Assembly (NCBI RefSeq): GCF_027925385.1
Contig: NZ_AP027142.1
Location: forward strand, 3,310,501-3,374,500
Reading direction: 5' to 3'
DNA: 64,000 bases
From: Methylocystis iwaonis
GTDB taxonomy: Bacteria; Pseudomonadota; Alphaproteobacteria; Rhizobiales; Beijerinckiaceae
Within the stretch, counting starts at the first letter, position 1. Every line of letters begins with the position of its first letter. The notes under the pieces are model-generated. The model was not told where the DNA came from. It did not search any database and saw nothing but the letters and a program-made list of their open reading frames with translations. This document shows, piece by piece, positions 31,255 to 55,668 of the stretch. Made by a program: the position numbers and the translations under genes.

Positions 31255-32484
31255 TTACTGAGGCGTTTTTTGTCGGGTCTCGGCGTAAACGCGTATAGAT
31301 TGGCGCCGCCTGCTCGCGTCCGCCGTCGCAATAGCCCTTTCGTAGATTCGCATGAGCGACTTGTGATTGACGCCTTCGGTAAAATTGTCAGCATAGGCCC
31401 GATAGGCAGCTCGGCGCATATGAGCGCGCGCTACTCCATCCGCCATCATGCCGCGAACTTTCTGCACAAGATCGGATGCATCGCCCGGCCGAAACAAGAG
31501 CCCGGTCACGCCATTTTCAATAATCTCCCCAATGGGCCCGAAGCCTGGCGCGATGACGGGCGTTCCTTTGCCAAAGGCCTCGACGATCACGCGCGGGAAA
31601 TTTTCGTAGCATCTTGACGGCACGATCAGCGCTTCGGCGTCTCCAACGAGTTCGTAGACAGCTTCTATGTCGAGCTGTCCAAGCCACTCGATCGCAGGCT
31701 CTTGCGAGCAAGCATCTTTTACGCGCCCCGCCATCGGGCCGTCGCCGATAATCTTGAGAGGGACCTCGCGGCCGAGCGCGCCCCAGGCCTCCAGCAATAG
31801 ATCGACGCCCTTCTCGCTAGAAAGGCGTCCAGCATATATGACGTAGCCGCCGCGCCCGGGACCCGGCTGGGCGTCACGGGCGAGGAAGTTAGGCTTCGTC
31901 GCAACTCTACTGGCTGGAAAGCCGCCCGCGACGAGCTTGCTTCTGCCGAATTCGCTAAGTGCAATATACATATCGACGGCGCTGCGCCATGTCCCTGCGA
32001 GTTTATGGATCGCGAGCATCCCGGAGATTGTCGCGGTCGCTGCGCGACTTGCGCGGTAGCACTTATTTTTGATCGCGGGCCAAGGAACCATTTTGCCGCA
32101 GCAGTCTTCACACACCCTTCCCTGACGGAAGAAAAGCCCGTTGGGGCAAAGAAGCCGGTAATTATGCAGGGTCTGGACGACTGCCGCGCCGTGCTGCTTG
32201 GTTGCGTAATATGCAGAGGGAGAAATCAGCGGCAAGGTGTTGTGGAAATGCACGACCTGGGGGCGCCGGTCACGCACGATCGCGCCAAGGTCGTTGAATG
32301 CTTGTCTGCTCCAGATGGTGTTGGCGGCGAGCGTGAGGGGCGGCATCCCCTCGAGAGAGTCGTTGTGGACAAAGTATTCGGTCACATTGTGTCCGTGCGA
32401 CCTCAGCATTTTCACCTCGTCCTCGACACACTGATCCTCTCCGCCTCTTTGCTGATAAAAGTCGTGCGCGACGACGATGTCCAT
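31255..32484 (-). CDS. Glycosyltransferase family 4
   Basis: Second GT4 enzyme of the locus, 409 residues. N-domain: DIVVAHDFYQQRGGEDQCVE, VVHFHNTLPLISPS, then TLHNYRLLCPNGLFFRQGRV and a Cys-containing segment (CEDCCGKMV) often seen in this subgroup. C-domain: YVIYAGRLSSEKGVDLLLEA, IIGDGP, and the donor-binding ALIVPSRCYENFPRVIVEAF with the E-x7-E pattern. Linkage and donor cannot be told from sequence. Transcribed with the upstream deacetylase (45-base gap). Confidence 0.88.
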   Translation of the reverse strand: MDIVVAHDFYQQRGGEDQCVEDEVKMLRSHGHNVTEYFVHNDSLEGMPPLTLAANTIWSRQAFNDLGAIVRDRRPQVVHFHNTLPLISPSAYYATKQHGAAVVQTLHNYRLLCPNGLFFRQGRVCEDCCGKMVPWPAIKNKCYRASRAATATISGMLAIHKLAGTWRSAVDMYIALSEFGRSKLVAGGFPASRVATKPNFLARDAQPGPGRGGYVIYAGRLSSEKGVDLLLEAWGALGREVPLKIIGDGPMAGRVKDACSQEPAIEWLGQLDIEAVYELVGDAEALIVPSRCYENFPRVIVEAFGKGTPVIAPGFGPIGEIIENGVTGLLFRPGDASDLVQKVRGMMADGVARAHMRRAAYRAYADNFTEGVNHKSLMRIYERAIATADASRRRQSIRVYAETRQKTPQ

Positions 32485-32529
32485 CGGGGAGCCCTCGCTG
32501 CCTTCAAAATTTGGATATGTATCGCCGTC

Positions 32530-33267
32530 TCAGCGACTCTCTTCGGCGCATAATTGCCCGTTCGAGAGCGTGCGCGCGTCTTTTGCCAGATCGCCGAGAA
32601 GCGCGAGGATATATTCCAGACGCTCCCACTGATTATTGTCTTGCAGCTCCCATGAATGGCCCCAGAGGTGAAACACGCCCCCTCTTGTCGTGGCCTCGCA
32701 AGCGAGCGAGCGCGCCAATACGGGCCAATCGCGCGAGCGGCCATGGGTGACGAAGCGCCATATGCTCCTGAGCGCCGCCCGCTTTAATGTATTTCTCGCA
32801 TAGACCATCGCGTCGTGGGGGTGGGCCTGGATCGTCGTCGGCATCAGCATGATGCCGCCCACGCGTTGCGGAAGATCGAGAGATAGCAGCGCAACGGTTC
32901 GAAACCCGACATAGCCCGCCCGCTCCGCCATGAGCATATGCTGACGGCTGTATCGCCCCTGAGGGGGGCAAAACATTCTGCAAGAGACACCCGTGACACT
33001 CTCGACCCAGCTTTTCGAGCCGGAGATCTCCGCCTCTGCGCGTGGAAGGGAAACCTCGGTCAGGACTTGATGCCCAAGCGTATGCGCGCCGATTTCGAAC
33101 GCCGCGCTCAACTCGCGGATTTCGCATTCTGTCAGAGTTGCTTTCTCATTGGCGCGAGGGATGTAGAACGTGCCGGAGACATCGAATTTCGCCAGTAGCT
33201 CCGCCACGCGCAGATCCAGCGGATGTCCGTCGTCCCAACTGGTCGTAATAAAGGTTTTGGAGGCCAC
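32530..33267 (-). CDS. Polysaccharide deacetylase (NodB/CE4-like)
   Basis: Likely removes N- or O-acetyl groups from the polysaccharide. 245 residues with the CE4 blocks FITTSWDDGHPLD (Asp-Asp of motif 1), FEIGAHTLGHQVLTEV (His-x4-His metal site), and CRMFCPPQGRYS. No signal peptide is visible, so a cytoplasmic role is possible. The GTG at 33267 follows TTGAGGAGAACCGAATCC; the longer frame from 33354 adds a basic low-quality N-terminus. Confidence 0.85.
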   Translation of the reverse strand: MASKTFITTSWDDGHPLDLRVAELLAKFDVSGTFYIPRANEKATLTECEIRELSAAFEIGAHTLGHQVLTEVSLPRAEAEISGSKSWVESVTGVSCRMFCPPQGRYSRQHMLMAERAGYVGFRTVALLSLDLPQRVGGIMLMPTTIQAHPHDAMVYARNTLKRAALRSIWRFVTHGRSRDWPVLARSLACEATTRGGVFHLWGHSWELQDNNQWERLEYILALLGDLAKDARTLSNGQLCAEESR

Positions 33268-33935
33268 GGATTCGGTTCTCCTCAATCGGAAGCGGCGCTT
33301 TCGAAACGAAAAAGCGCTACTCGGTCGCTGAGGCATTAGCGCCCGGGCGCGCACATCTTTGAATTGGTCAAAGGTAGCGGCGCCAATCTCTCACGCTCGA
33401 AGTCGTGGTAATCCGGACTTGCCTCGGCATTGGCGTGTTCGCGTCTTGAGCGTCCGCTCGACCCGCCAATCTCGAATGTCCATATGCAGTGAGAAGAGCG
33501 ACACAGCGGCGCCCGGACCTCGCCGGTGTCGCCGAGATAGTCGTGCAAAGCCCGACGACCGATGCGAGCGCGACCTTAACGATAAGAACACGCCGTTCGC
33601 CGGGATAATGCTCAAGCCCAAGCATCTCGTCGCGGTAATTTTCGTCGACCTGGCGACCGATCGCGTCGCAACAAGGTCAACTCCCAGTAAACATTGAGAT
33701 TACCTCGGAAGTTGACGCCTTGGGACGCCGTTTCTCTTGGCGCCCGAGGGTTTCAATTATCTGGGCCTTGGCCATTTTGCTTGTTGTGAGATTGCAACAG
33801 TGAGCATAAACTCTCGTACGTACGTAACATTCTCGATTGCGTAAATTGGCGGATGCATGAGACGTTCAGGCGGAAATATCTATAGCGTAACGCATCCTAT
33901 CGCCGTGTAGCTCAACGAAAAGGATTACCCGATCC
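33268..33935. promoter_or_regulatory. Gene-poor divergent region upstream of the export lipoprotein
   Basis: 668 bases. The left part (33268-33660) contains overlapping open frames on both strands with no recognisable protein character. The right part (33760-33920) is AT-rich, with CGTACGTACGTAACATTC at 33816-33833 and ATATCTATAGCGTAACGC near 33880, and presumably holds the promoter of the Wza-type gene. Confidence 0.4.
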
Positions 33936-35108
33936 ATGCGAGGCTTGATCCCCTTCACGGGCTTGCTGTTGCTGCCGCTCGCCCTCGAAGGATGTTTCAC
34001 GCCCGGCTCAGGGCCGCAGATCGAGGCTGTTTACGCGAATGCGGTAACCCAAGAGGGCGAGGTACTCCGCCCGAACTATGAGCTGATCGAATACTCCAGC
34101 CCGATCCTCGAGATCCTGCGGCGCCGGTCCAGCGACAGCCTTTACGGCCACTTCGGCGGCGGCCGCTTGGGGCCCTCGCAGGTCACGATCGGGGTTGGCG
34201 ACGTCATCGGACTTTCGGTCTACGAAGCCTCCGCGGGAGGGCTCTTCACGCCGGCCGCAACGGACACGATCCGACAAGGCAATTACGTGAATTTCCCGCA
34301 GCAGGTCGTCGAGCAAGACGGAACCGTGAGCGTTCCTTACGCCGGCCGCATTATGGCGAGAGGAAAGACAACCCGTCAGCTCGAGCAGGAAATCGTCAGC
34401 CAGCTCAAAACGCGAGCGGTCGAGCCGCAGATTGTCGTCAGCCTCGTCGATTCGCGTTCGAGCCTCTTTTCGGTTCTCGGCGAAGCGCAGAGGCCCGGTA
34501 GCTTCCCAGTCAACTGGGCTGGCCAAAAACTGCTCGCGGGCATCGCTCTCGCAGGCGGCCCGAAGTGGGCCGATTACGAGACTTCCATCACGATCAATCG
34601 TGGCGGGAAGACCGCGACGGCTATGATGCAGAACATCATCGCCGATCCTCGCGAGAACATCTTTCTGCGCCCCGGGGATTCGGTCTTTTTGCGACGCGAG
34701 CCGAGATTCTACACAGCGCTCGGAGCGGCAGGCAAAAGCGGCCATTATCCAATCGACGTGCCCAAGATCACCCTTGCGGAGGCCGTCGGCCGCGCGCAAG
34801 GACTTCTCGATACGCAAGCCGATCCGACAGGCGTGTTTCTGCTCCGCTGGGAGAAGAAACAAGCGCTCGAGAAAATCGGGCGCCCGGTGGCGAGCTACGT
34901 TACGCCGACCGTCCCGACCATCTATCACTTTGATCTAAGAGATCCCAATCATTTGCTGGCGTCCCAGCAAATCGACGTCATCCACAGCGACGTCATCTAC
35001 ATCAGCAACGCGCCGACAGTCGAGCTGCGAAAGACGCTTCAGGTTCTGGCGGACCTCTCCTACATAACGCTGAACGCCGCCCAAACGAGTTTCGTGTTGC
35101 ACTACTGA
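33936..35108 (+). CDS. Polysaccharide export outer-membrane lipoprotein (Wza/GumB-like)
   Basis: Forms the outer-membrane export channel for the exopolysaccharide. 390 residues: lipoprotein signal peptide with lipobox LEGC (Cys20), then the Poly_export domain (VTIGVGDVIGLSVYEASAGG, QQVVEQDGTVSVPYAGRI, QIVVSLVDSRSSLFSVLGEA) and SLBB domains (SGHYPIDVPKITLAEAVGRA). It ends in an aromatic C-terminus (SFVLHY). AAAAGGA precedes the ATG. Partner of the BY-kinase/Wzz protein about 12 kb upstream. Confidence 0.92.
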   Translation: MRGLIPFTGLLLLPLALEGCFTPGSGPQIEAVYANAVTQEGEVLRPNYELIEYSSPILEILRRRSSDSLYGHFGGGRLGPSQVTIGVGDVIGLSVYEASAGGLFTPAATDTIRQGNYVNFPQQVVEQDGTVSVPYAGRIMARGKTTRQLEQEIVSQLKTRAVEPQIVVSLVDSRSSLFSVLGEAQRPGSFPVNWAGQKLLAGIALAGGPKWADYETSITINRGGKTATAMMQNIIADPRENIFLRPGDSVFLRREPRFYTALGAAGKSGHYPIDVPKITLAEAVGRAQGLLDTQADPTGVFLLRWEKKQALEKIGRPVASYVTPTVPTIYHFDLRDPNHLLASQQIDVIHSDVIYISNAPTVELRKTLQVLADLSYITLNAAQTSFVLHY

Positions 35109-35130
35109 TACGAGATCCGTTTGATTTGGT

Positions 35131-35211
35131 GTCATTCCCGACGCTCGCGTAGCGAGCGATCGAGAATCCAGGGCAACAACAGCGCGTTTGCGGCATTGGA
35201 TTCTCGCTCGG
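35131..35211. repeat. Extragenic palindrome, family A
   Basis: Element beginning GTCATTCCCGACGCTCGCG, with AGCGAGCGATCGAGAATCCA and a complementary TTGGATTCTCGCTCGG further on. It fills most of the 129-base gap between the export lipoprotein and the lytic transglycosylase, which are convergent, so it may also act at mRNA ends. Related copies lie near 40.2-40.5 kb, 46.7 kb and, degenerate, 54.2 kb. Confidence 0.8.
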
Positions 35212-35237
35212 CGCTTAAGCATGGCCTAACCCGGCCG

Positions 35238-36110
35238 TCAGCCTCTGTTTCGGGCAAATAGGAAACGCCCCCATTTGGCGTGCACCTTTTGCTTGAGCGC
35301 CCGGATGCGCGCCTCATGCCACACCCAGAAGCTATCGGAGCTTTTGAACCGTTTTGGCGATTGCGGCCTAATAAGAAGTTTGGCCGGAAGCGGCGCCCCG
35401 GCCGACACATTCAAGGTCGGGGCAATCGCGCGCGGTTCAGCATTCGCGCTTGAAATGAGTCGCGGCGCGATTGCGTCCTCGCGCTTGAACCCGGAGTCGA
35501 TCTGCGAAAGATACAGCTTTGCGCGCCGACAATAGTCGATCGAACGCGCGGTCATGCGCTCTTCTCCGAGGCCCGCTCGGTATTTCATCAATGCGCGACA
35601 GATGTCGCCGTTCGACATACGCCAGGCTTTGGCGAGGTAACCCACGCCGTAGTAAATGTTGGTTTGCGGCGCAGCGAGGTCGCTCATGGCGCCCTTGAAG
35701 CCCATCATGGCGGCGGTGCTGGGAAGCACTTGCATCAGCCCAACCTCCCCCACTGCCCCCCTCGCCTCCGGATCATAGGCGCTTTCGATATAGGCGACGG
35801 CTTCTGCGAGGTCTTCTGGAAGATTCCTGGTCTTGGCCTCGGCGCGCACCATGCCGATCAACCTGGCTCGAGGCGAGGTGAGATGCGCGTCGATCAAGAG
35901 CTTTGCTTGCGCTGGCGGCTCCTCTTGCGCCGTCAGGAGCTTGATGCCGCTCGTCGCCTCGCGCGCGGCCATGGGGGCCTCGATTGGCGCCGGCTTTTGC
36001 GGTCGATTGCAAATATCTGAAGCGAGCGCGCCGGATAGCAGGCAAATCCCAAAGGATGTGCGCGCCGGGCGGAACAACCCCGACAATTGCTGGTTCTCAC
36101 GTCGCTGCAT
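35238..36110 (-). CDS. Lytic transglycosylase (SLT/GH23 domain)
   Basis: Periplasmic peptidoglycan-cleaving enzyme, perhaps opening the wall for assembly of the export machine. About 290 residues: N-terminal hydrophobic stretch (FGICLLSGALASDIC), then the SLT domain at about 95-200. The catalytic Glu is in AVAYIESAYDPEARGAVGEV, followed by GLMQVLPSTAAMMG and the tyrosine-rich NIYYGVGYLAK. ATG 36110 chosen; the open frame reaches 36695 only because it runs antisense through the DegT gene. Its Cys-containing N-terminus could be a lipoprotein signal. Confidence 0.85.
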   Translation of the reverse strand: MQRRENQQLSGLFRPARTSFGICLLSGALASDICNRPQKPAPIEAPMAAREATSGIKLLTAQEEPPAQAKLLIDAHLTSPRARLIGMVRAEAKTRNLPEDLAEAVAYIESAYDPEARGAVGEVGLMQVLPSTAAMMGFKGAMSDLAAPQTNIYYGVGYLAKAWRMSNGDICRALMKYRAGLGEERMTARSIDYCRRAKLYLSQIDSGFKREDAIAPRLISSANAEPRAIAPTLNVSAGAPLPAKLLIRPQSPKRFKSSDSFWVWHEARIRALKQKVHAKWGRFLFARNRG

Positions 36111-36243
36111 TGGATGCTCGCATGTCAGCAGGTCTCGCGTCGGAGTTGAAAAAGCGATGGCGCTTATGAACGCCTCGCGCCGCGCCGATTGGTCTGTTTC
36201 CACGAGACCAGCGCGCCGCTGGGTCTCGCGAAACGCAAAACGC

Positions 36244-37506
36244 CTAAACTCTTTCCTTTGGCGCGTTGTCGATACGCGGAGATTGGACATCCTGCGCGTA
36301 GTTCGCCAGTACCTCGGCGACGCAGCTTGCCAGCTCCTCGGCGTAAGACGCGGTGATTCTCGGATGCGTCGGCAGCGTGAGAATGGCGCGCACGAAGGCG
36401 GAGATCGTGCTGGAGCGTCCTGGAATGGTCGCATTCGCGGGAAGCTCGTGCACATTAGGATACAACATGAGGCCGATGTCATAGCCGCGCCGCAACACTT
36501 CCCGATAGACGCGCTCCCTGTTCTCTTTTCCGACGACGATCGGATAGCTGAACCAGGACGAGGACGCGCGCGTCTCTTCGTCCGTTTCCGCCGCCGCGCA
36601 AAGGTCTCGGAATCTTTTGTCATAGATCGCAGCGATCTTTCGCCGATGCGCATTGATGCGCTCGACATCGCGGGACTTGTGGTTCCATTCCGCAAAGGCG
36701 CCCAGTGACGGACGGGTCGTGATCGTCTCGTCCAGAGTTGGCGTTTCGATCAGAACGCGGGGAATAAGATCGGCGATTTTCCCCTGCTGCACGCTTAGTC
36801 TTCGCGCCCGAAACGCGAAGGGAAACACCAGCGGACTTGTCAGAAATGCATAGCGAAGCACCGTCTTCGCCATTCCGAGATACTGCCGCGGCCGCAGACG
36901 TGGCCAGCGCGACACTTCGCGCGAGAGCGCGTCGAAAAGCTCGGCATCTCTTGTGGCGATAAAACCGCCCCAGATGAAGTTCTGAATCTTGAAGCCCGAC
37001 AGGCTGAACACGCTGGCGTCGCCGAACGCGCCGACCGGCTGTCCGTCGAGCGTCGCGCCGAGAGCCACGGCGCAATCCTCGAAGACTTTCACGCCGTTAC
37101 TGTGGCACAGGCCGACAATCTCCTGCGTCCTGTTCTGGGTGACGCAATAATGCGTGAGCAACACGCAAGCCGCGCTGTCGTCGATGAGAGAGCGCAGATG
37201 GGCGACATCCATATTCGTGGAATCGGGAAGGCAATCGACGAACACCGGCTCGCCGCCGGCAAATCTCACCATGTTGACGACATCGGCAATCGTCAAAGGC
37301 GACATCAGGACGCGCCGCCTCGTATCGGTCAGCGCGCTTTTGACCAGAAGGTATATCCCCGCCCGCGCCCGCCCGAGCGGAAGGATATGGGCGCCACCCA
37401 GCCTCTCCGAGCTTTGCGCGATGAAGGTTCTTTCTGATTGCGCGTTTCCCGAGACCCACGGCGTGAGGTACCGCATCGGGTAGACGATCTGCCTCGGCTG
37501 GACCAT
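36244..37506 (-). CDS. DegT/DnrJ/EryC1/StrS-family aminotransferase-like protein
   Basis: PLP-dependent enzyme of the sugar aminotransferase family, probably making an amino sugar. 420 residues with LMSPLTIADVVNMVRFAGGE, VFVDCLPDSTNMDV, HYCVTQNRTQEIVGLC, FEDCAVALGATLDGQPVGAF, and the PLP-lysine region FSLSGFKIQNFIWGGFI. In place of the usual S-F-H-x-x-K motif it has SGFK. It follows the GMC-type gene on the same strand after 47 bases. Substrate unknown. Confidence 0.82.
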   Translation of the reverse strand: MVQPRQIVYPMRYLTPWVSGNAQSERTFIAQSSERLGGAHILPLGRARAGIYLLVKSALTDTRRRVLMSPLTIADVVNMVRFAGGEPVFVDCLPDSTNMDVAHLRSLIDDSAACVLLTHYCVTQNRTQEIVGLCHSNGVKVFEDCAVALGATLDGQPVGAFGDASVFSLSGFKIQNFIWGGFIATRDAELFDALSREVSRWPRLRPRQYLGMAKTVLRYAFLTSPLVFPFAFRARRLSVQQGKIADLIPRVLIETPTLDETITTRPSLGAFAEWNHKSRDVERINAHRRKIAAIYDKRFRDLCAAAETDEETRASSSWFSYPIVVGKENRERVYREVLRRGYDIGLMLYPNVHELPANATIPGRSSTISAFVRAILTLPTHPRITASYAEELASCVAEVLANYAQDVQSPRIDNAPKERV

Positions 37507-40527: not shown

Positions 40528-40977
40528 TCAGATATCGAAGAAGATCGCTTCCGCGTTGTTTTTCGCTCGGTCGCCCATCTCTTGAAGAGAACAATTGTCA
40601 AGCACGTTCGACAAGGCTTCCTGGGCGCGCTGCATGATCTTGCGCACGGCGCAGGTGTTTTCGTCGAAGCAATCGTCACAGCGCCGGTAGCGCGTCTTAC
40701 TCGCGCAAGGCACCGGCGCCAAAGGCCCGTCGATCGCGCGCACGAGTTCGCCGACGGTAATCTCGCTCGCCGGGCGCGACAGAGCGTAGCCGCCGCCCTT
40801 CCCCATCTTCGAATGGACAAATCCCGCGTTGCGCAGCTCGCAGAGGATGGCGTCGAGAAACTTTTTCGGGATGCATTGCTTTTCGGAAATTTCGAGCACG
40901 GGAACCGGGCGCCCGGGCTCGGACTGCGCCAGATGCACCATGGCTTTGAGGCCGTATTTTCCCTTTTTTGTCAGCAC
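40528..40977 (-). CDS. Rrf2-family transcriptional regulator with four-Cys motif
   Basis: Probable regulator of the adjoining encapsulin/cysteine genes. 149 residues: N-terminal winged helix (KYGLKAMVHLAQ, IPKKFLDAILCELRNAGFVH, MGKGGGYALSRP) and a C-terminal cluster C-x8-C-x2-C-x5-C (about residues 94-112) that could bind an Fe-S cluster or sense thiols. GTG 40977 chosen because it aligns with the usual Rrf2 start and has GGGAAG upstream; ATG 41022 would add 15 residues. Very similar to the Rrf2 protein at 54.5 kb. Lies downstream of the cysteine desulfurase on the same strand. Confidence 0.85.
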   Translation of the reverse strand: MLTKKGKYGLKAMVHLAQSEPGRPVPVLEISEKQCIPKKFLDAILCELRNAGFVHSKMGKGGGYALSRPASEITVGELVRAIDGPLAPVPCASKTRYRRCDDCFDENTCAVRKIMQRAQEALSNVLDNCSLQEMGDRAKNNAEAIFFDI

Positions 40978-41154
40978 GCGGATGACTTCCCGAAAGCGAG
41001 CGCTTTCCGCTGTTATCCCCATGCAGCTAATCAGTCAACTATTTCCATAGATTATACAGGCTTCAAAACAGACAAACGGTCGAGCCTCTAAATGAGCCGA
41101 TCATGTGGGTGAATGGGCGGCTGACGCCATGCCGCCCCTCTCTTTTGCCCCAGC

Positions 41155-43392
41155 TCAGAAGCCGCCGCGGCCCGCCTGCAGCTTCAACAGCGCCGCCACC
41201 AGCGCATCGACGTCCGCGCAGGTGTTGTAGAAGGCGAGCGAAGGCCGCACCGTCGCCTCGAGGCCGAAACGGCGCAGGATCGGCTGGGCGCAATGATGGC
41301 CCGCGCGCACGGCGATGCCTTCCCGATCGAGCGCCTTGCCGACCTCCTGCGTGCTGTGGCCGTCGAGCACGAAGGACAGCACGGAGGCCTTCTCGGCCGC
41401 CGTCCCGATAAAGGTCAGGCCAGGCACCAGGCGCATTTTCTCGGTGGCATAGACGAGAAGGTCATGCTCGTAACGGGCGATGACCTCCATGCCGATGCTC
41501 TCGACATAATCGAGCGCCGCGCCGAGACCCACTGCGTCGGCGATATTGCCCGTACCCGCCTCGAAACGCTCCGGCGCGCCCTGATAGATCGTCTTCTCGA
41601 AGGTAACGTCGGCGATCATATTGCCGCCGCCCTGCCAGGGCGGCATATTTTCGAGCACTGCGTCCTTGCCGTAGACGACGCCGATGCCGGTCGGCCCGAA
41701 GACCTTGTGGCCCGAGAAGATGAAGAAGTCGCAGTCGATTGACTGCACGTCGACCGGCATATGCGAGACGGATTGCGCGCCGTCGATCAGCACGCAGGCG
41801 CCGTGGCGATGCGCCATGGCGGTGATCTCGCGCACCGGCGTCACCGTGCCGAGCGCATTGGAGACCTGCGTCACGGCGACGATGCGCGTCTTCGGATTGA
41901 GCAGCTTCTCATATTCTTCGAGAATGAGCTGGCCGCGATCGTCGACCGGCGCGACGCGCAGCCGCGCGCCCTTCTCGGCGCAGAGCATCTGCCAGGGAAC
42001 GATATTGGCGTGATGCTCCAGCCAGGAGACGACGATCTCGTCACCCTCGCGCACATTGCGGCGGCCCCAGGCCTGGGCGACGAGATTGATGCCCTCCGTG
42101 GCGCCGCGCACGAACACAATGTCCTTAACGCTGGGCGCCTTCAAAAAGCGGCGAACCTTTTCGCGCGCGGCCTCATAGGCGTCGGTCGAGCGCGCGGCGA
42201 GCGCATGGGCGGCGCGGTGGATGTTGGAGTTTTCATACTCGTAGAAATGCGACAGCCGGTCGATGACCGACTGCGGCTTCTGCGTCGTCGCCGCATTGTC
42301 GAGCCAGACGAGCGGCTTGCCATGAACCTGCTGCTGCAGGATCGGGAAGTCGCGCTTCACCCGATAGGGATCGAAGACCTGGCGCGTCTCAGTGGAGCTG
42401 GGCGAAAGCTGCGGCGCGAAGCCCTGCGGCTCGGCGGCAGGCTGCGCCGGCGCGGCGGCGGGATGGCCGCCCGTATGGCTCACGAAGTAAAGCGCGTCGC
42501 TCGCGGCGGGGCCGGATTGGCCGGGCGTCGGGAAGCTCTCGAAGCCGCTCGAAAATTGCTCGCCGCCGACGGGCGGCGTGGCGAGCGAAGCGGAGTCCGA
42601 GAGACGGTGCGGATCGGCTTCCGACGGCCCTGAGATGGCGAAGCTCTCCGGCGCGGCGGGAGCCCTGGCCTCGGCCTCCGCCGGCGCGCTCGGCGCGGAG
42701 ACCGGAATGTTCGGCTGTCCGAGCTCCGGCTGCGGCGCGACCGCCGGCGTATGCGGCGAGAGATAGGACGGCGCGGGCGCGGCCGGCGCGCTCGTGGGGG
42801 CCGCCCGCTCATGCAGGAAGTAGAGATTATCGACCGCAGGGCTCGCGCTTACCCCGGCGGGGCCGATCGCTTCCGGCGCGTTGACGTGGCTTTGTGGCAC
42901 GAGCGACATGTCTGCGGCGAGAAGGCGCGGAATGAGGCTGTAATCGACGTCCGAGGGAATAGCGGAAGGGGTGGAGCTGCCGAGCGACGCGCCTGGCTGC
43001 GGAATTTGGTCGAGACCGAGCGGGCGCGTCGGCGACTGCAAACCCGTCGGCGCGGCCGGCGCGGGGATGTTCGGCGTCGGGATGACGGAGAGGATTGTCG
43101 TTTGCGGCACGTCCGGCGGCCCCATCTGGGTGCGCGCGGGGGCGAGCGGCGCGACCGTCGTCACGACCGAAGGCGCCGGCGCGTCGGGCAGGCTCGGCGT
43201 CAGCGCCGGCGGACCGAAGGGCAGCGAGGAATTGGCCAGCGGAACCGGCGGCTGCTGGAAAAAAGCGTTGGCCAGCCGCGCGATCATATTCGGGTCGATT
43301 GTCGGCGCGGCGTGATGGCCGGCGTCCTGAGCGGGGAGATTGTCGAGCGGCAAATCGGCGGAAGCGGGAATGGCGGGCTTCGCAGGCGACAT
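41155..43392 (-). CDS. Cysteine desulfurase (SufS-like) with long N-terminal encapsulin-targeting domain
   Basis: Takes sulfur from cysteine and is the presumed cargo of the neighbouring shell protein. 745 residues. Residues 1-337 are Pro/Ala/Ser-rich and look disordered, with isolated hydrophobic motifs: IDPNMIARLANAFFQQ (32-47), DYSLIPRLLAA (150-160), NLYFLHE (189-195) and ALYFVSHT (300-307). Residues 338-745 are a class V aminotransferase fold with PLP-Lys563 (FIFSGHKVFGPTG) and catalytic Cys701 (AGHHCAQP). Known family 2A encapsulin systems have exactly this cargo architecture. RBS GAGGAAG precedes the ATG. Starts 61 bases after the encapsulin gene. Confidence 0.93.
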   Translation of the reverse strand: MSPAKPAIPASADLPLDNLPAQDAGHHAAPTIDPNMIARLANAFFQQPPVPLANSSLPFGPPALTPSLPDAPAPSVVTTVAPLAPARTQMGPPDVPQTTILSVIPTPNIPAPAAPTGLQSPTRPLGLDQIPQPGASLGSSTPSAIPSDVDYSLIPRLLAADMSLVPQSHVNAPEAIGPAGVSASPAVDNLYFLHERAAPTSAPAAPAPSYLSPHTPAVAPQPELGQPNIPVSAPSAPAEAEARAPAAPESFAISGPSEADPHRLSDSASLATPPVGGEQFSSGFESFPTPGQSGPAASDALYFVSHTGGHPAAAPAQPAAEPQGFAPQLSPSSTETRQVFDPYRVKRDFPILQQQVHGKPLVWLDNAATTQKPQSVIDRLSHFYEYENSNIHRAAHALAARSTDAYEAAREKVRRFLKAPSVKDIVFVRGATEGINLVAQAWGRRNVREGDEIVVSWLEHHANIVPWQMLCAEKGARLRVAPVDDRGQLILEEYEKLLNPKTRIVAVTQVSNALGTVTPVREITAMAHRHGACVLIDGAQSVSHMPVDVQSIDCDFFIFSGHKVFGPTGIGVVYGKDAVLENMPPWQGGGNMIADVTFEKTIYQGAPERFEAGTGNIADAVGLGAALDYVESIGMEVIARYEHDLLVYATEKMRLVPGLTFIGTAAEKASVLSFVLDGHSTQEVGKALDREGIAVRAGHHCAQPILRRFGLEATVRPSLAFYNTCADVDALVAALLKLQAGRGGF

Positions 43393-43453
43393 GAAGGCGG
43401 CTTCCTCGGCGTGAAAGAGAGCCGGCGGCGCTGGGCCGCCGGCGTTGTTGCGA

Positions 43454-44401
43454 TCAGACGCGCTTGTCGTCGTATTCGTGGAACTTGCTCACATCGACAT
43501 CCTCGAGCACGCCGAGGGCGTCATGCGTCAGCACTGCGGCCGAGCAATAGAGCGAGATCAGATAGGAGGCGATCGCCTTGCGGTTGATGCCCATGAAGCG
43601 AACCGACAGACTCGGCGCCACCTCGCCGGGGACGCCCGGCTGGAACAGGCCGATGACGCCCTGCTTCTTCTCGCCGGTGCGCAGCAGAAGAATATTTGTC
43701 TTGCCGTTCTCGTCGATGTAGAGCTTGTCGCTCGGCACCAGCGGCAGGCCGCGCCAGGTGATGAAGGGCGAGCCGAACAGCGTGACGGTTGGCGGCGGCA
43801 CGCCGCGGCGGGTGCATTCCCGGCCGAACGCCGCAATGGCGCGCGGATGCGCCAGGAAGAACGCCGGCTCCTTCCACACTTTGGAGATCAGCTCGTCGAG
43901 ATCGTCCGGCGTCGGCGGTCCCTTGCGGGTCTTGATCCTCATCGACGGATGCGCATTGGCGAGGAAGCCATATTCCGCATTGTTGATGAGTTCGGCCTCC
44001 TGCCTCTCCTTCACCTTCTCGGTGAGGAGACGGACCTGCTCCTGAATCTGATCATAGGGATGGTTGTAAAGATCCGAGACGCGGGTCTGAACGTCGAGGA
44101 TCGTCGTCACCGCGTTCATCGAATATTCGCGCGGCGCATCTTCGTAATCGACGAAGGTCTCCGGTAGGTCCGCATCACGATCGCGCGCCGGGCTGCATTG
44201 CACGACGGCGTCGCTCAACGCCGACGATTCCTTGACGCGGTTCAGGCGGTAGATGCCGGCTTCGACCGGCACCCAGGGGAGGAAGGACACGAGCCAGCGC
44301 GGCGTGATGCCCGACCATTGCGGGCGGGTTTTCGTTGCGTTGGCGAGCTGGCGCGCCGCCGCCTCGCTCAATGTTCGGCGGACTTCGGGTTCTGCAGTCA
44401 T
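43454..44401 (-). CDS. Family 2A encapsulin shell protein (SrpI-like)
   Basis: HK97-fold protein expected to self-assemble into an icosahedral nanocompartment. 315 residues, the size of cyanobacterial SrpI. Recognisable family sequence includes NATKTRPQWSGITPRWLVSF, LPWVPVEAGIYRLNRV, EYSMNAVTTILDVQTRVSDL, AEYGFLANAHPSMRI, TLFGSPFITWRGLPLVPSDK, GVIGLFQPGVPGEVAPSLSV and RFMGINRKAIASYLISLYCS. Databases often label such proteins phage capsid or major membrane protein I. No other phage gene is present, and a desulfurase cargo follows directly. RBS CTAGGA precedes the ATG. Confidence 0.93.
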   Translation of the reverse strand: MTAEPEVRRTLSEAAARQLANATKTRPQWSGITPRWLVSFLPWVPVEAGIYRLNRVKESSALSDAVVQCSPARDRDADLPETFVDYEDAPREYSMNAVTTILDVQTRVSDLYNHPYDQIQEQVRLLTEKVKERQEAELINNAEYGFLANAHPSMRIKTRKGPPTPDDLDELISKVWKEPAFFLAHPRAIAAFGRECTRRGVPPPTVTLFGSPFITWRGLPLVPSDKLYIDENGKTNILLLRTGEKKQGVIGLFQPGVPGEVAPSLSVRFMGINRKAIASYLISLYCSAAVLTHDALGVLEDVDVSKFHEYDDKRV

Positions 44402-44725
44402 GCAATCGTCCTAGGAGGGTCGACGGGAACAGACGGGCGCCGCGCGGGAGGGCGCGTCGTCTTTTCAAATACAAGAAATCGCTAACATGTTGCTTGCGAC
44501 AGCGTGAACTCTACACGCTATCGTTCTGGATTCAAGAGTATTTCATGGAATTAATACATGACAAAGTTCTACTATATTAGAATACATATACTAATACGAC
44601 CAGCCGTACATGCTGCTGACAGCCGAGGCGAAGATAGCAAAGCGCGTTTTGCGGCTATTGCCTTTTCTGATGATATAGTCTATGACTTTTATAGATTAAT
44701 TCGCGCGCTGCTTGAAGGCCGTGGA
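44402..44725. promoter_or_regulatory. Divergent control region, encapsulin / serine acetyltransferase, with inverted repeats
   Basis: 324 bases, AT-rich in its right two thirds. Three inverted repeats are visible: AGCGTG-N7-CACGCT at 44501-44519; TATTAG-N10-CTAATA at 44575-44596; TCTAT-N7-ATAGA at 44679-44695. The last shares ATAGATTA with the Rrf2 gene's own upstream region (41047-41054). They are candidate operators for the Rrf2 regulator. The frame extending the acetyltransferase upstream to 44558 is treated as non-coding. Confidence 0.5.
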
Positions 44726-45667
44726 ATGACGCAACAGTTCGAGACAATTTTCCTGGACCCGGACGGATTCGACGTCGAAGACATCGTCTCAGCTCTCGCC
44801 ATCTTGCGTCGAAAGTCGCAGACGAATCGTTACGGAAACGGCCGGCTTCCCGAGCTGCCGTCGCGCGCGGCCATACTCGACACTGTCGAGGATTTGACCG
44901 CGGTTCTCTATCCACGGCATTTCGGCCCTTATGAGCTGACGCCGGAGACGACGGACGCCTTCTTGACCCGGACTCTCGGCCGTGCGCTGCGGATGCTGCG
45001 TGAGCAGGTCCGCCGCGAGCTCAAGCTCTTCGAACCCGAAGCCGCCGACGATGCGCTCGCGACCCGCGCCAGACTGATCACAGAAGAATTCGCGCAGGCG
45101 CTGCCACAGGTCCGCATGCTTCTCGATACGGATATTCGCGCCGCCTTCACAGGCGATCCGGCGGCCAAGAGTCTCGACGAAGTCGTCTTCTGCTATCCTG
45201 GCGTTTCCGCCATCATCCGCCATCGTCTCGCGCATCGGCTTTATTTGCTCGGCGCGACGATGATCGCCCGCATCGTCGCCGAGATCGCGCATTCGCAAAC
45301 CGGCATCGATATTCACCCCGGCGCGACCATCGGCGAAAGCTTTTTCATCGATCACGGGACAGGCGTCGTCATCGGCGAGACGGCGATCATCGGCAAGCGC
45401 GTGCGCCTCTATCAGGCCGTTACCCTCGGAGCCAAGCGTTTCGACGTCGACGAGAACGGCGCACTCGAAAAAGGCAAGCCGCGCCATCCGATCATCGAGG
45501 ACGACGTCGTGATCTATGCGGGCGCCACCGTGCTCGGCCGTATCACCATCGGTCGTGGCTCCGCCATCGGCGGCAATGTCTGGCTCACCCAGAGCGTGCC
45601 GCCCGGCGCCAACATTTCCCAGGCGAAGGCGCGCGTGGAAGTCTTCGACCATGGGGCAGGCATATGA
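44726..45667 (+). CDS. Serine O-acetyltransferase (EpsC/CysE type)
   Basis: Makes O-acetylserine, the carbon skeleton for cysteine. 313 residues: long alpha-helical N-domain, then a left-handed beta-helix of hexapeptide repeats (TGIDIHPGATIGESFFIDHG, TGVVIGETAIIGKRV, YQAVTLGAKRFDVDENG, AIGGNVWLTQSVPPG). Catalytic His in DIHPG and IDHGTG. The length and DENG/KGKPRHP insert fit the EpsC branch. ATG 44726 follows GAAGGCCGTGGA; the ORF's earlier start at 44558 lies in the AT-rich promoter area. Cysteine synthase follows 52 bases downstream. Confidence 0.9.
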   Translation: MTQQFETIFLDPDGFDVEDIVSALAILRRKSQTNRYGNGRLPELPSRAAILDTVEDLTAVLYPRHFGPYELTPETTDAFLTRTLGRALRMLREQVRRELKLFEPEAADDALATRARLITEEFAQALPQVRMLLDTDIRAAFTGDPAAKSLDEVVFCYPGVSAIIRHRLAHRLYLLGATMIARIVAEIAHSQTGIDIHPGATIGESFFIDHGTGVVIGETAIIGKRVRLYQAVTLGAKRFDVDENGALEKGKPRHPIIEDDVVIYAGATVLGRITIGRGSAIGGNVWLTQSVPPGANISQAKARVEVFDHGAGI

Positions 45668-45719
45668 GTTTCGATCGGCGGACCGGAAGCGCTTCGGCAG
45701 GAAGTGAAAGGATAGACGA

Positions 45720-46703
45720 ATGACTATTCACAGCGTGAACTTCACCCCGGCGGCGCGGCCAGGGCGCGGCCGGATCTACGACTCCATCACCCAAACCATC
45801 GGCGACACGCCGATCGTGCGGCTCGATCGCATTGCGCGCCTCAAAGGCGTGAAGGCGAATATTCTGGCGAAGCTCGAATTCTTCAATCCCATCTCCAGCG
45901 TCAAGGACCGCATCGGCGTTGCGATGATCGAGACGCTCGAAAAGGAGGGGCGTATTGCGCCCGGCAGGACGGTTCTAATCGAGCCGACATCCGGCAACAC
46001 CGGCATTGCGCTCGCCTTCGTCGCCGCCGCGCGCGGCTACCGGCTCATTCTGGTGATGCCTGAATCGATGTCGCTCGAACGGCGCAAGATGCTCGCTCTG
46101 CTCGGCGCGGAGCTCGTGCTCACGCCTGCCTCGCAAGGAATGAAGGGCGCGCTCGCGAAAGCCAATGAGCTTCTTGCGCAGAACCCCGACGCGCTCATCC
46201 CCCAGCAGTTCGAGAACCCCGCCAATCCCGAAATTCATCGCGCGACCACGGCGGAGGAAATCTGGAACGACACCAATGGCGAGATCGATTATTTCATTTC
46301 AGGCGTCGGCACGGGCGGCACGATCACCGGCGTCGGACAAGTGCTGAAGCGGCGCAACCAAAATCTGCGCGTCGTCGCCGTGGAGCCGGAAGACTCGGCG
46401 GTGCTCTCCGGCCGCCCGCCGGGACCGCACAAGATTCAGGGCATTGGCGCAGGCTTCGTGCCGCCCGTTCTCGACCGGAGCGTGATCGACGAGATCGTCA
46501 CCATCGGCAATCAGACGGCGCTCGACACCGCGCGACTCATTGCACGGACCGAAGGCGTCCCCGTCGGCATTTCTTCGGGCGCGGCGCTCGCGGCCGCATT
46601 GGAGATCGGCGCCCGCCCGGAGGCCGAAGGAAAGAATATTGTCGTGATCGTTCCGTCTTTCGCGGAGCGTTATCTCTCCACGGCGCTTTTCGAAGGGTTG
46701 TAG
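45720..46703 (+). CDS. cysK: Cysteine synthase A (O-acetylserine sulfhydrylase)
   Basis: PLP enzyme joining O-acetylserine and sulfide to cysteine. 327 residues with the PLP-lysine block [18 protein letters not shown] (about residues 53-70), [34 protein letters not shown] for phosphate binding, and [12 protein letters not shown] at the C-terminus. Ribosome site AAAGGATAGACGA. With the upstream acetyltransferase it forms a two-gene cysteine biosynthesis unit diverging from the encapsulin-desulfurase pair, which consumes cysteine. Confidence 0.95.
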
Positions 46704-52046: not shown

Positions 52047-53474
52047 ATGGCTCATTCGACGGCTTGCGCGCTCGTTCAGAACCAATCTCGCAAGCAGCGG
52101 CTCCTCGCTTTGACGGGCGCCGCTTTCTTTTTCTTCGCGATGCGCGCGGCGCCGCCCGCCCACGCCGAACCGAGCGTCTACCCCACCGGAACCACGATCT
52201 ACGATCCGGCCAAGGCCTATAATTCCTACGTGCTCTTTCCGGGCGGCGACGACGTTTCCCGCTTGATCGACCTCACCGGAAAGGTCGTGCACGAATGGAA
52301 ATATTCGGGGCAGCCCGTCGCCTTTATCGATCCGGCGCTTGTCGGCGGCGCGCGCGGCCATGTCTTCGTCACGCTGGAAACGGAGGAAGGCAAAGGCACG
52401 GATCTCGTGCCCGGCCGCACCTTCACGCGAATCCGCAAAAGCGTCGGCGAGGTGGACTGGAACGGCGCCAAGCTCTGGGAATTCGGCGCCAACGCGCCCG
52501 GCGGCCGTGCGCAGCAACATCACGACATTGCACGGCTGCCAAACGGCAATACGCTCGTGCTCTCGAATATCGTCTACCCGCTGCCGGGCTTCGCCACGCC
52601 GCAAGTGCTCGACGACGTCGCCTATGAAGTGAATCCGGAGGGCGACATCGTCTGGACATGGGCTGCATCGGACCATATCGACGAGATCGGCTTTACCGCC
52701 GACGAGCTGAAACTCGTAAAGAACTCGAAAAGCGCCGACTATCTTCACGTCAATGATCTGAAGCCCGTCGGCCCGAACCATTGGTTCGACGAAGGCGACC
52801 AGCGTTTCGCGCCGGACAATCTCATCTTCGATTCACGCTCTGCGAACTTCATCGCGATCATCGACCGCAAGACGCGCAAGATCGCCTGGACCCTGGGGCC
52901 GCATTATCCGGGGATTTCGGAAGATGGGAGCCCGACCTCGCGGAAGGTGCCACGTCCGGTCGATCAGATCTCCGGCCAGCACGACGCGCATATCATTCCA
53001 AAAGGCTTGCCGGGCGCGGGCAATCTCCTCGTCTTCGACAACCAGGGCGAGGCCGGCTATCCGCACGCCGCCGTCTCCATCACCGGCGGCTCGCGCGTGC
53101 TCGAGATCAATCCAGTGACGAAGGAAATTGTCTGGCAATATACGGGCGCCAGCTCGGGCCAGCAGGGATGGGCGTTCCGAAGCACGCATATCAGCAATGC
53201 GCGCCGGCTTCCCAACGGCAACACCTTCATCGACGAAGGTCAGATCGGCCGTTTCTTCCAGGTGACGCCGGCGGGCGAGATCGTCTGGGAATATGTCAAT
53301 CCTTATCCGCGCCGCGGCAAAGATCCCGAGACCGGTCGCGCCACTGTGAGTTACGCGGTCTATCGGGCGCAGCCGGTTCCTTACGAATGGGCGCCGGAGG
53401 GAACGCCGCATAGCGAAGAAAGCGTGACGCCGCCAGAGAACGCGAGTTTCCATATTTCGGCCAAAGCAAAGTAA
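52047..53474 (+). CDS. Arylsulfotransferase (ASST) family protein
   Basis: Periplasmic beta-propeller enzyme family transferring sulfate between phenolic compounds without PAPS. 475 residues: signal peptide 1-41 (AAPPAHA cut), then propeller blades with conserved HHDIARLPNGNTLVLSN, WFDEGDQRFAPDNLIFDSR, QHDAHIIPKGLPGAGNLLVF, STHISNARRLPNGNTFIDEG and VTPAGEIVWEYVNPY. Several His in these blades are candidates for the sulfated catalytic residue. Ribosome site GGAGAGGTAGACTC. Physiological substrate unknown. Confidence 0.82.
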   Translation: MAHSTACALVQNQSRKQRLLALTGAAFFFFAMRAAPPAHAEPSVYPTGTTIYDPAKAYNSYVLFPGGDDVSRLIDLTGKVVHEWKYSGQPVAFIDPALVGGARGHVFVTLETEEGKGTDLVPGRTFTRIRKSVGEVDWNGAKLWEFGANAPGGRAQQHHDIARLPNGNTLVLSNIVYPLPGFATPQVLDDVAYEVNPEGDIVWTWAASDHIDEIGFTADELKLVKNSKSADYLHVNDLKPVGPNHWFDEGDQRFAPDNLIFDSRSANFIAIIDRKTRKIAWTLGPHYPGISEDGSPTSRKVPRPVDQISGQHDAHIIPKGLPGAGNLLVFDNQGEAGYPHAAVSITGGSRVLEINPVTKEIVWQYTGASSGQQGWAFRSTHISNARRLPNGNTFIDEGQIGRFFQVTPAGEIVWEYVNPYPRRGKDPETGRATVSYAVYRAQPVPYEWAPEGTPHSEESVTPPENASFHISAKAK

Positions 53475-53499
53475 GCACGGCGATCGAGCGAGGCCAGCG

Positions 53500-53676
53500 A
53501 TGTTTCACGTCTATTTGATCAAGATCGGCGTCGACCCCGTCGGCGTCGTCGCGGACGGACCCGAGGGCTACCGCTTCTACGCGATCGAAGACTCTTTTCG
53601 AGAACTCGAAGAGCTCGTATTCGACCGCGCGGAGGATGCGAGAAGCGCTGCGGTCATTTTGTTCGATAGCAAATGA
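53500..53676 (+). CDS. Small uncharacterised protein, 58 residues
   Basis: Read by hand: begins MFHVYLIKIGVDPVGVVADG and ends SAAVILFDSK. Acidic, apparently soluble, mixed alpha/beta (a strand, a turn, a helix FRELEELVFDRAEDA). No family recognised. It fits neatly between the arylsulfotransferase (25 bases before) and the cupin (49 bases after), all on the plus strand, with GCGAGG before the ATG. Confidence 0.55.
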   Translation: MFHVYLIKIGVDPVGVVADGPEGYRFYAIEDSFRELEELVFDRAEDARSAAVILFDSK

Positions 53677-53725
53677 GGTCGATGCATGGCCGCTCGAGCC
53701 GCTCGTATCCGGGAGTGAGATAGAC

Positions 53726-54226
53726 ATGGGTAAATTGCTGAACGCGTCGCTCGGCGCGGGTCTTGTTCTGGGCCTCGCGGGGGCGCTTCAAGTCGCCCTC
53801 CCGAGCCGGGCGGACACGGAAAACGGATTCATCCGCCTTTTGCCCGAGCAGGCGCCCTTCAAATCGCCGCTTGGCGCAGGGCCGTCCCAGGCGATCATCT
53901 ATGGCGATCCTTCCAAACCCGGTCTCTATGTCGTGCGCAACCGCTTCCCGCCCGGCGCGCATTCCAACCCGCATTTCCATTCCCAGGACCGGCACGCGAC
54001 CGTCATCAAGGGCGTCTGGTACACTGGAGTGGGCGAGAAGATCGACTTCAACGCCGCCGCGCCGCTGAAGGAAGGCTCTTACATGCTGCATCCGGCCAAT
54101 GGCGTGCATTGGGACGGCGCCGGCGCGGAAGAGGTTGTCGTGCAGATCATCGGCGTCGGACCGGTAACGACGACGCAAGTCGGCGCGCCGGATCCGCAGA
54201 GCAGCAATTGGCCGAAACCGAAGTAA
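53726..54226 (+). CDS. Exported cupin-domain protein
   Basis: 166 residues: signal peptide (GAGLVLGLAGALQVALPSRA) and one cupin barrel. The metal-site motif is NPHFHSQDRHATVIKGVWYT (about residues 87-106), with the second half EGSYMLHPANGVHWDG (about 122-137). Such small periplasmic cupins are of unknown specificity. Ribosome site GGGAGTGAGATAGAC. Probably co-transcribed with the arylsulfotransferase-family gene. Confidence 0.8.
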   Translation: MGKLLNASLGAGLVLGLAGALQVALPSRADTENGFIRLLPEQAPFKSPLGAGPSQAIIYGDPSKPGLYVVRNRFPPGAHSNPHFHSQDRHATVIKGVWYTGVGEKIDFNAAAPLKEGSYMLHPANGVHWDGAGAEEVVVQIIGVGPVTTTQVGAPDPQSSNWPKPK

Positions 54227-54243
54227 AATAAACGACTGTTGCC

Positions 54244-54394
54244 CTTCCGCCGCTCGCGAAGCGAGCGATCAGGAACCCAGAACAAATCCAGCGCTATATT
54301 TTGGCGCCCACCGTCATTGCGAGGAGCAGAGCGACGAAGCAATCCAGGGCAGCTATAGCGGCTCTGGATTGCTTCGCTTCGCTCGCAACGACGG
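54244..54394. repeat. Two extragenic palindromes side by side (degenerate A, then B)
   Basis: 54244-54290 is a decayed family A half (CCGCTCGCGAAGCGAGCGAT, then AGGAACCCAGAACAAATCC). 54312-54394 is a family B copy (CGTCATTGCGAGGAGCAGAG ... CTGGATTGCTTCGCTTCGCT, CGCAACGACGG) in which the two arms are swapped relative to the other copies. The 277-base gap 54227-54503 contains nothing else. Confidence 0.8.
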
Positions 54395-54503
54395 AAGGCT
54401 CTGAATTTCCGGTCGGGGTTCCAGCCCGCCGGGAATAACAGCCCCACTTTTCGAGGCGGCGCGATTTCTCGCCACTCGACCGCACCCGGGCGAGCGGAAA
54501 GCG

Positions 54504-54938
54504 TCACCGCAAAATCTGCGTCTCTCGATTGCCGCGGTTGCGCAGCGACGCAATGCTGGTGCGGTCCAGAATGAGCGCGATCGAATCGCGCACGTCCAGC
54601 ATGATGTCGCGGATCGCGCAGGCGTCTTCGTCCGGGCAGTCGGCGCAGCGCTGATAGGCCGTGCGGCTCGCGCAGGCGATCGGCGCGAGCGGGCCGTCGA
54701 GGATGCGGATGATCTGGCCGACGGTGATCTTCTCCGCCGGGCGCGCCAGATGATAGCCGCCGCCCTTGCCCTTCCGGCTGTTGAGAATGCCGGCGTTGCG
54801 CAGCTCGACCAGGATGGCGTCCAGGAATTTCCGAGGGATGTTGTTGGCGGTCGCGATATCGCCAGCCAGACATTTGTCGTCCGCCTTGGCGAGATGGATG
54901 AGCGCCTTCAGCCCGTATTTCGCTTTATTCGAGAGCAT
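54504..54938 (-). CDS. Rrf2-family transcriptional regulator with four-Cys motif
   Basis: 144 residues: winged helix MLSNKAKYGLKALIHLAKAD, NNIPRKFLDAILVELRNAGI, KGKGGGYHLARPAEKITVGQ, then the cluster C-x8-C-x2-C-x5-C (CASRTAYQRCADCPDEDAC). Shares the same fingerprint and long identical stretches with the Rrf2 protein at 40.5 kb, so the two are paralogues. It lies between the cupin and the TonB system; its target is unknown. It could sense redox, Fe-S or sulfur status, like IscR/CymR relatives. Confidence 0.88.
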   Translation of the reverse strand: MLSNKAKYGLKALIHLAKADDKCLAGDIATANNIPRKFLDAILVELRNAGILNSRKGKGGGYHLARPAEKITVGQIIRILDGPLAPIACASRTAYQRCADCPDEDACAIRDIMLDVRDSIALILDRTSIASLRNRGNRETQILR

Positions 54939-55124
54939 TCTTCTTTCGAGGCCAAATCGGCCTGCCCGCGCGCTTGGGAGGCCCTCCGATGCGGACCGCC
55001 CCGATCAACGCTAGCTATCATATAGGAACATCGGGCGAAAGCAGAAGCGCAAATCTGCCTGCCTATCGGCCTCCGCCGCCTGGGCGGTCGGGGCAAGCAA
55101 CTGATTTTATAATCTGAAATTATC
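54939..55124. promoter_or_regulatory. Upstream region of the second Rrf2 gene
   Basis: 186 bases between the Rrf2 start and the terminator of the exb operon. It includes CTATCATATAGGAACATCG at 55014-55032, a possible promoter or autoregulatory site. No gene seen. Confidence 0.35.
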
Positions 55125-55204
55125 AAAAAACACGTCCCGGGCCCGGGAGAAACTGGGCGCTCCGAGGACGGCGGAGCGCCTTGAGGAAACGAGCCCGGGA
55201 CGTT
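55125..55204 (-). terminator. Strong nested terminator of the exbD operon
   Basis: On the minus strand an outer stem (ACGTCCCGGGCTC with CCCGGGACGT) encloses an inner hairpin (GGCGCTCCG ... CGGAGCGCC) and is followed by GTTTTTTG. It starts 9 bases after the exbD stop. Confidence 0.8.
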
Positions 55205-55212
55205 TCGCGCGC

Positions 55213-55648: not shown

Positions 55649-55668
<20 letters not shown>
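55213..55668 (-). CDS. exbD: ExbD/TolR-family biopolymer transport protein
   Basis: Part of the proton-motive-force motor energising TonB. 151 residues: cytoplasmic N-terminus, one TM (about 24-43: PLVDVMLVLLIVFMVAAPLM) with the functional Asp of TPLVDVMLVLLIVF, and a periplasmic domain with an Ala/Gly-rich tail. Its ATG lies inside the end of exbB (20-base overlap). The gene order tonB-exbB-exbD favours ExbD over TolR. Confidence 0.9.

Follow-up and report, generated by a model that had tools for sequence, protein, structure and literature searches.

Two studies describe the systems that come closest to the locus reported here. In Synechococcus elongatus PCC 7942, the cargo protein of the SrpI shell has a disordered N-terminal domain that contains the motifs LARLANEFFS and AASPYYFLDG and loads the cargo, and residues F262 and Y273 of SrpI lie near the cargo density (excerpts of Nichols et al. 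2021, eLife, PMC8049743). A survey of 1281 family 2A operons describes the same shell-cargo pair, puts serine O-acetyltransferases and rhodaneses at the top of the enriched accessory genes, and already ties serine O-acetyltransferase to cysteine synthase (excerpts of Andreas and Giessen 2021, PMC8346489). The pair of shell and desulfurase is a described system that is held to store sulfur, as a first-pass annotation of the DNA studied here had stated. That DNA is a window of 64,000 nucleotides from Methylocystis iwaonis (contig NZ_AP027142.1; all positions below are those of the window), which contains a family 2A encapsulin operon. The core of this operon is the system already described, and the cysteine synthase (CysK) and Rrf2 regulator genes beside the cage are a local variation on it.

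A check of the open reading frames (ORFs) of the window recovered all five genes where the first-pass annotation had put them; four pass curated family models and the fifth, the serine O-acetyltransferase (SAT), passes the EpsC model:

40528..41022, minus strand: Rrf2-family regulator with the cysteine motif CX8CX2CX5C (Pfam Rrf2, NCBIfam rrf2_super)
41155..43392, minus strand: cargo cysteine desulfurase of 745 amino acids (aa), with a SufS-like catalytic domain at about residues 338-745 (NF041166)
43454..44401, minus strand: family 2A encapsulin shell of 315 aa (NF041162, encap_f2a; Pfam SrpI-like)
44558..45667, plus strand: SAT of the EpsC type with the C-terminus GAGI (EpsC model), probable start at 44726
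45720..46703, plus strand: cysteine synthase CysK (TIGR01139)

We regard it as highly probable that these genes specify a sulfur compartment, consisting of a shell and a desulfurase loaded by way of its N-terminus, which is fed by SAT and CysK and controlled by the Rrf2 protein. The filling of the compartment, its storage function, its feeding and its regulation we infer to proceed as follows. The shell would close around the SufS-like desulfurase, which its long, floppy N-terminus would carry in, and the enzyme would strip sulfur from cysteine that enters via the shell. The sulfur would then build up inside as a store; others have reported such storage for a relative. Extra cysteine for the compartment would come from the divergent SAT and CysK genes, apart from the housekeeping set, and the Rrf2 protein, a paralogue of the regulator at the side of the housekeeping cysK and most likely a CymR-like repressor, would switch the divergent promoters in response to the status of cysteine or O-acetylserine.

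The direct results concern family membership, cargo motifs, gene order and paralogy. In the case of the shell, the profile search bore out the assignment to family 2A: the NCBIfam model encap_f2a scores 516.7 bits at a cut-off of 380. The Pfam model SrpI-like scores 359.8 bits and is the sole Pfam domain found, i.e. there is no cyclic-nucleotide-binding domain, which is the mark of family 2B. The family 2B model also exceeds its cut-off (444 vs 400), but its best stretch begins at position 209 of the 450 in the profile, and it scores lower than the 2A model. The closest solved shells are 8t6r (the family 2A shell of A. baumannii, 458.6 bits) and 6x8m (SrpI, 447.8 bits), and a relative from M. 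smegmatis, 8wol, was deposited as 60 chains; by analogy with such solved relatives, the shell probably has sixty subunits. The residues F269 and Y280 align with F262 and Y273 of SrpI, Y280 being invariant and F269 nearly invariant among 27 shells. Structure prediction, proposed in the first-pass annotation as a check, helped in part: the model is poor (mean pLDDT 52.7), yet the first seven Foldseek matches are all family 2 encapsulins (four 2A and three 2B, E 1.5e-17 or better), followed by phage capsids at E 0.003 or worse. Since the model is poor, the fold list serves as support only and the claim rests on sequence.

Relatives were compared in the best 80 of at least 552 confirmed shell matches, a gene being counted when its best tblastn hit lay within 4.5 kb of the shell; this sample is skewed to close relatives and many of its loci are cut short, with 52 of the 80 having at least 4.5 kb on both sides of the shell. 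These loci, together with the profile scores, bear on the warning that the shell gene could easily be mislabelled as a phage capsid. That it encodes a phage or prophage capsid, with its neighbours present by chance, has a probability close to nil in our estimate. Weak PHROG matches do exist, one with a family of unknown function (21.5 bits, E 0.0003) and one with a major head protein (15.2 bits, E 0.022), and they are, like the phage capsids that appear in the fold list from E 0.003 onward, what the shared HK97 fold leads one to expect. They stand against two curated encapsulin models that exceed the phage families by hundreds of bits, a cargo gene close to the shell in 78 of the 80 loci, and the absence of any phage family from the selection of neighbouring ORFs that was scanned with Pfam. 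The shell is therefore not limited to matches with phage capsids, the best named one of which reaches only E 0.022, and the profile scores rule the capsid reading out.

The desulfurase scores 882 bits with the family 2 cargo model NF041166 (f2_encap_cargo1, cut-off 800), and its catalytic part scores 567.7 bits with the SufS model. It contains the motifs RAGHHCAQP, with the active-site cysteine, and SGHK, with the lysine that binds pyridoxal phosphate, and each of the two corresponding patterns was matched in 73 of 75 cargo proteins compared (the one in the window included). The long disordered N-terminus that had been ascribed to the enzyme is likewise supported by prediction, as AlphaFold2, run on 22 sequences, places residues 1-337 below pLDDT 50 throughout. 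Three short helices are drawn within this region, the longest at residues 34-45 over the first of the motifs below and the others at 153-160 and 264-267:

42382..43392, minus strand: coding part of the N-terminal cargo-loading region, residues 1-337, pLDDT below 50
43258..43287, minus strand: MIARLANAFF, residues 36-45, counterpart of the published LARLANEFFS, within helix 34-45
42814..42834, minus strand: VDNLYFL, residues 187-193, counterpart of the published AASPYYFLDG, a YF-type pattern
42481..42501, minus strand: SDALYFV, residues 298-304, a second copy of the YF-type motif

Within the same set of cargo proteins the first-motif pattern was found in 56, the YF-type pattern in 70 and both in 53. 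The SufS-like score of the catalytic domain also suits a different role, in which the encapsulated desulfurase is a delivery device that hands persulfide to an acceptor for iron-sulfur clusters or thio-cofactors, as has been proposed in print for operons that bear a rhodanese (in the part of PMC8346489 drawn on here). A scan of part of the ORFs between about 23 and 63 kb detected no rhodanese, SufE or SufU family, and the genome has other desulfurases beside its suf and nif genes; we consider delivery quite improbable for this locus.

The gene company of the shell is what sets the locus apart, and here the first-pass view that a complete cycle in one place is less usual needs to be divided. 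Next to the 78 cargo genes, the 80 loci contain SAT in 62 cases, CysK in 16 and Rrf2 in 5, and among the 52 loci with full flanks the numbers are 52, 41, 13 and 4. The SAT is hence common, and since it is printed as a top accessory gene its link to the shell was already known; CysK and Rrf2 are the rarer companions. All four genes occur together in two loci, both among the 52. One (L001) is that of Methylocystis sp. Sn-Cys, the nearest record found, which is the same species as the window genome (shell 100%, cargo 98% and Rrf2, SAT and CysK 99% identical); the other is L002. Searching the 80 loci with a profile grown from the Rrf2 protein of the window yielded no additional Rrf2.

The placement of SAT and CysK divergent from the shell held for CysK outright (445.1 bits with the TIGR01139 cysK model, cut-off 350.95). 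For SAT it held with a changed start. The protein is over the EpsC cut-off (164.6 vs 150) and under that of cysE (169.1 vs 210.65), and the alignments with its homologues in L002-L008 and L011 begin no earlier than residues 39-73 of the ORF (that of L001, from the same species, aligns from residue 1). Because of this late onset the true start is, judging by the alignments, probably the ATG at 44726 and not 44558, which makes the divergent intergenic region about 324 bases long (44402-44725) instead of 156. The C-terminal isoleucine of SAT anchors, and is needed for, the complex with CysK; it is present in 40 of the 62 SATs near shells and in 14 of the 15 loci that have both SAT and CysK. At least 50% identity to the SAT of the window is seen in 48 of these 62.

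CysK and Rrf2 have close paralogues elsewhere. The same genome encodes a second CysK, over the cysK cut-off and 86% identical to that of the window over 320 aa, in a locus with the order cysK, TauE-type sulfite exporter and divergent Rrf2 (L132:4927-7482), and this cysK-linked Rrf2 shares 63% identity with the encapsulin-linked one over 134 aa. In a survey of 39 Methylocystis genomes, that of the window among them, 37 gave a CysK hit, and 33 of these 37 have, outside the encapsulin locus, a CysK and an Rrf2 gene no more than 2.5 kb apart, at gaps of 720-1147 bases (genomes G001, G013, G023 and G036 are without this pairing). That the two paralogues stand together elsewhere suggests that the encapsulin-linked pair is a borrowed cysteine module, the source of which was probably the cysK-exporter-Rrf2 locus. 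In a tree of CysK proteins, the copy in the window clusters with the second CysK of its genome and with that of L002 (support 97/99); shell-linked copies of Rhodoblastus, Rhodopseudomonas and methylococcal origin form another branch with L006 and L055 (94/95), and a third branch (88/89) comprises the copies from Magnetospirillum, from an acidobacterium and from two Hyphomicrobium. Given these separate branches, CysK was seemingly recruited to shells repeatedly, probably more than once on the evidence of the tree, the latter two forks of which are not strongly supported. Beside sufD, the genome further encodes a SufS-like desulfurase (50% identity over 387 aligned columns); nifS and a SAT (cysE) lie in the cluster that contains nifQ, and three additional SATs exceed the cysE cut-off. 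With other desulfurases, SATs and a CysK present, the genes of the locus are extra copies.

The 86% identity of the second CysK would also suit a different arrangement, in which SAT and CysK serve general cysteine synthesis as part of a stress regulon and merely share a promoter region with the shell, the compartment being a sink against excess cysteine. Of the 19 shell carriers in the genus, only seven have a CysK (at least 85% identical) at 1.1 to 1.4 kb from the shell, which fits. The SAT, on the other hand, is found near the shell in 62 of the 80 loci and may lie to either side of it; this suggests a durable association, and we judge this arrangement unlikely.

Shells were found in 19 of the 39 Methylocystis genomes; of the 30 genomes with a completeness of 90% or more and a contamination of 5% or less, 18 carry one. 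An Rrf2 gene lies 2.3 to 2.6 kb from the shell in nine of the carriers, among them all seven with CysK; in G001 the distance is 5.4 kb, and G016 is too fragmented to judge. Genome G002 has Rrf2 and no CysK beside the shell; its second CysK, 88% identical to that of the window, is at C1:3937374-3938354, about 1.4 Mb from the shell. The 4.48 Mb genome of the window holds a single shell match. In Granulicella sp. S156 two family 2A shell loci occur on separate contigs (L061 and L063).

The regulator named in the first-pass annotation is indeed of the Rrf2 family, with 123.3 bits from rrf2_super (cut-off 73.3) and 132.5 bits from Pfam Rrf2; it probably starts at residue 16 of the ORF, at about 40977. 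The region that it would act upon contains the following elements:

44402..44725, no strand: divergent control region of shell and SAT, with a promoter-like stretch and a weak dyad
44508-44535, minus strand: promoter-like TTGAAT-16-TAGAGT for the shell, conserved, seen by eye in five aligned Methylocystis upstream regions
44572-44591: weak dyad, candidate operator, top scorer in the upstream alignment

A consensus promoter scan did not return the TTGAAT site and gave two others, at 44564-44537 (minus strand) and 44551-44578 (plus strand). Gene linkage favours cysteine as what the Rrf2 protein senses.

Several observations weigh against the compartment model as set out above, most of them at the level of its control. 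The Rrf2 protein fails the NCBIfam models of both CymR (88 bits, cut-off 195) and IscR (86.5 bits, cut-off 207.55), so that model scores fix no signal, and the four cysteines of the protein could instead bind an iron-sulfur cluster. The evidence for an operator is weak: the score of the dyad, computed from five of the nine Rrf2-linked Methylocystis upstream regions, was reached by 1 of 60 column shuffles. The palindrome ATTAGAATACATATACTAAT is unique in the window, and in other species its letters are changed and a dyad persists only in about the same register; since the letters differ, it was dropped as a conserved operator and stays a weak lead. A TAGAC-type string occurs upstream of the shell in nine of the loci L001-L011 and in one of L012-L050 (L019), i.e. 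both with and without a detected Rrf2, which rules it out as a specific Rrf2 site. In the genus, 10 of the 19 carriers are without Rrf2 within 2.6 kb and 12 without CysK within 1.4 kb (some contigs being short or fragmented), from which it follows that neither gene is needed for the core. Finally, knock-outs of shell and cargo in S. elongatus had no growth defect (excerpts of PMC8049743).

If the Rrf2 protein were an iron-sulfur sensor of the IscR or NsrR type, the locus would answer iron-sulfur demand or redox stress and not cysteine; the conservation of CX8CX2CX5C in all five encapsulin-linked Rrf2 proteins of the 80 loci and in both paralogues compared agrees with this, as do the nearly equal CymR and IscR scores. 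Its closest paralogues in the genus nevertheless adjoin cysK in the 33 of 37 genomes mentioned, and the spacing of the cysteines differs from the IscR pattern, so that we consider such a sensor somewhat unlikely and retain a response to cysteine status as the favoured form of control.

A further element lies in the gap between the shell and cargo genes:

43421..43443, minus strand: GC hairpin of nine pairs, all G-C, followed by TCTCTTTCAC

With a hairpin defined as at least 8 G-C pairs within 75 nucleotides past the stop codon, one follows 40 of the 80 shell genes. The fairer control is the rate after other long ORFs, which is 67 of 461; these ORFs were chosen mechanically, and cargo, SAT and CysK genes as well as spurious frames may be among them. 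Mostly coding control windows of the same count have one in 5.8% of 2378 and 4.7% of 5064 cases. The rates after the other genes are 22 of 72 for cargo, 6 of 61 for SAT and 4 of 18 for CysK, the rate at the cargo gene's own end thus being raised as well. Some of the 75-base stretches enter the GC-rich start of the cargo gene, so that part of the excess may be codon-driven. In a hand-picked and thereby biased set of 19 loci the hairpin was present in 15 (control 5.5% of 1837 windows), with stems that vary in sequence and still pair. Fold z-scores of the gap regions are unremarkable overall (median -1.16, with 24 of 74 below -2), many gap lengths in this test being negative because the first methionine was used as the cargo start. 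Scans of the window with Rfam at the gathering threshold and for tRNAs gave no match. We consider the hairpin a candidate attenuator or mRNA stabiliser. An element within the operon that curbs read-through or protects the shell transcript would account for the large number of shells per cargo, and would be a simple way of obtaining a many-copy shell and a few-copy cargo from one operon.

These leads can be combined into a more specific proposal, which we put forward tentatively and with more doubt than confidence. The CymR-like Rrf2 protein and CysK, as copies of the housekeeping module, may have been wired to the compartment, with the SAT-CysK complex or its metabolite serving both to fill the store and to signal its need, and the terminator-like hairpin may set the shell-to-cargo ratio here and in many related operons.

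Other parts of the window touch upon the same subjects. A third Rrf2 protein with the same four-cysteine motif is encoded at 54504-54938 (minus strand), near an arylsulfotransferase-like gene (52047-53474, plus strand), ExbB/ExbD- or TolQ/TolR-like genes (55213-56392, minus strand) and a TonB receptor (58144-60648, minus strand); the region 52047-60648 is perhaps a second unit, for sulfur-ester uptake, under a sister regulator. By eye, a short protein at 62768-63304 resembles a rhodanese; it has no cysteine at the expected place, and neither Pfam nor NCBIfam gave a match at E 0.001. Upstream of the locus, 23481-37506 contains genes for polysaccharide export, a polysaccharide deacetylase and glycosyltransferases.

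If the proposed compartment is correct, it places a sulfur-storing nanocompartment in methanotrophs together with a genetic handle, namely a local regulator and a local cysteine supply. Both are beside the shell in some species of one genus and were not found beside it in others, and through this natural contrast the question of when and why such compartments fill becomes testable. In the open-licence literature, nothing was found on encapsulins in Methylocystis and nothing relevant on intergenic terminators in encapsulin operons, and for encapsulins with Rrf2 nothing but an iron review turned up; the term Rrf2 has 0 occurrences in the main texts of PMC8049743 and PMC8346489.

Compared with known systems, the locus is an unusually full local set of cysteine genes on a known core, with the regulator and the hairpin as leads. 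CymR is the cysteine regulator of Bacillus and Staphylococcus, and the Rrf2 protein of the window matches the solved CymR chains 2y75 and 3t8r. It shares with CymR the Rrf2 family and, in Methylocystis, the linkage to cysK; it differs in scoring below the CymR cut-off and in having the four-cysteine motif. A sulfur-storing family 2A encapsulin has reportedly been described from A. baumannii, going by the title of a 2024 article by Benisch, Andreas and Giessen in Sci. Adv. (eadk9345), and it is the A. baumannii shell 8t6r that is the closest solved one to ours. The SrpI/CyD system of S. elongatus shares the shell family, the adjacent SufS-like desulfurase, the long disordered cargo N-terminus with both motifs and the two shell residues near the cargo density (excerpts of PMC8049743). 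In the window, however, the cargo N-terminus comprises 337 residues with two YF motifs, compared with 225 residues in the SrpI system, and, unlike the latter, the operon is accompanied by a local CysK and a local Rrf2 regulator.

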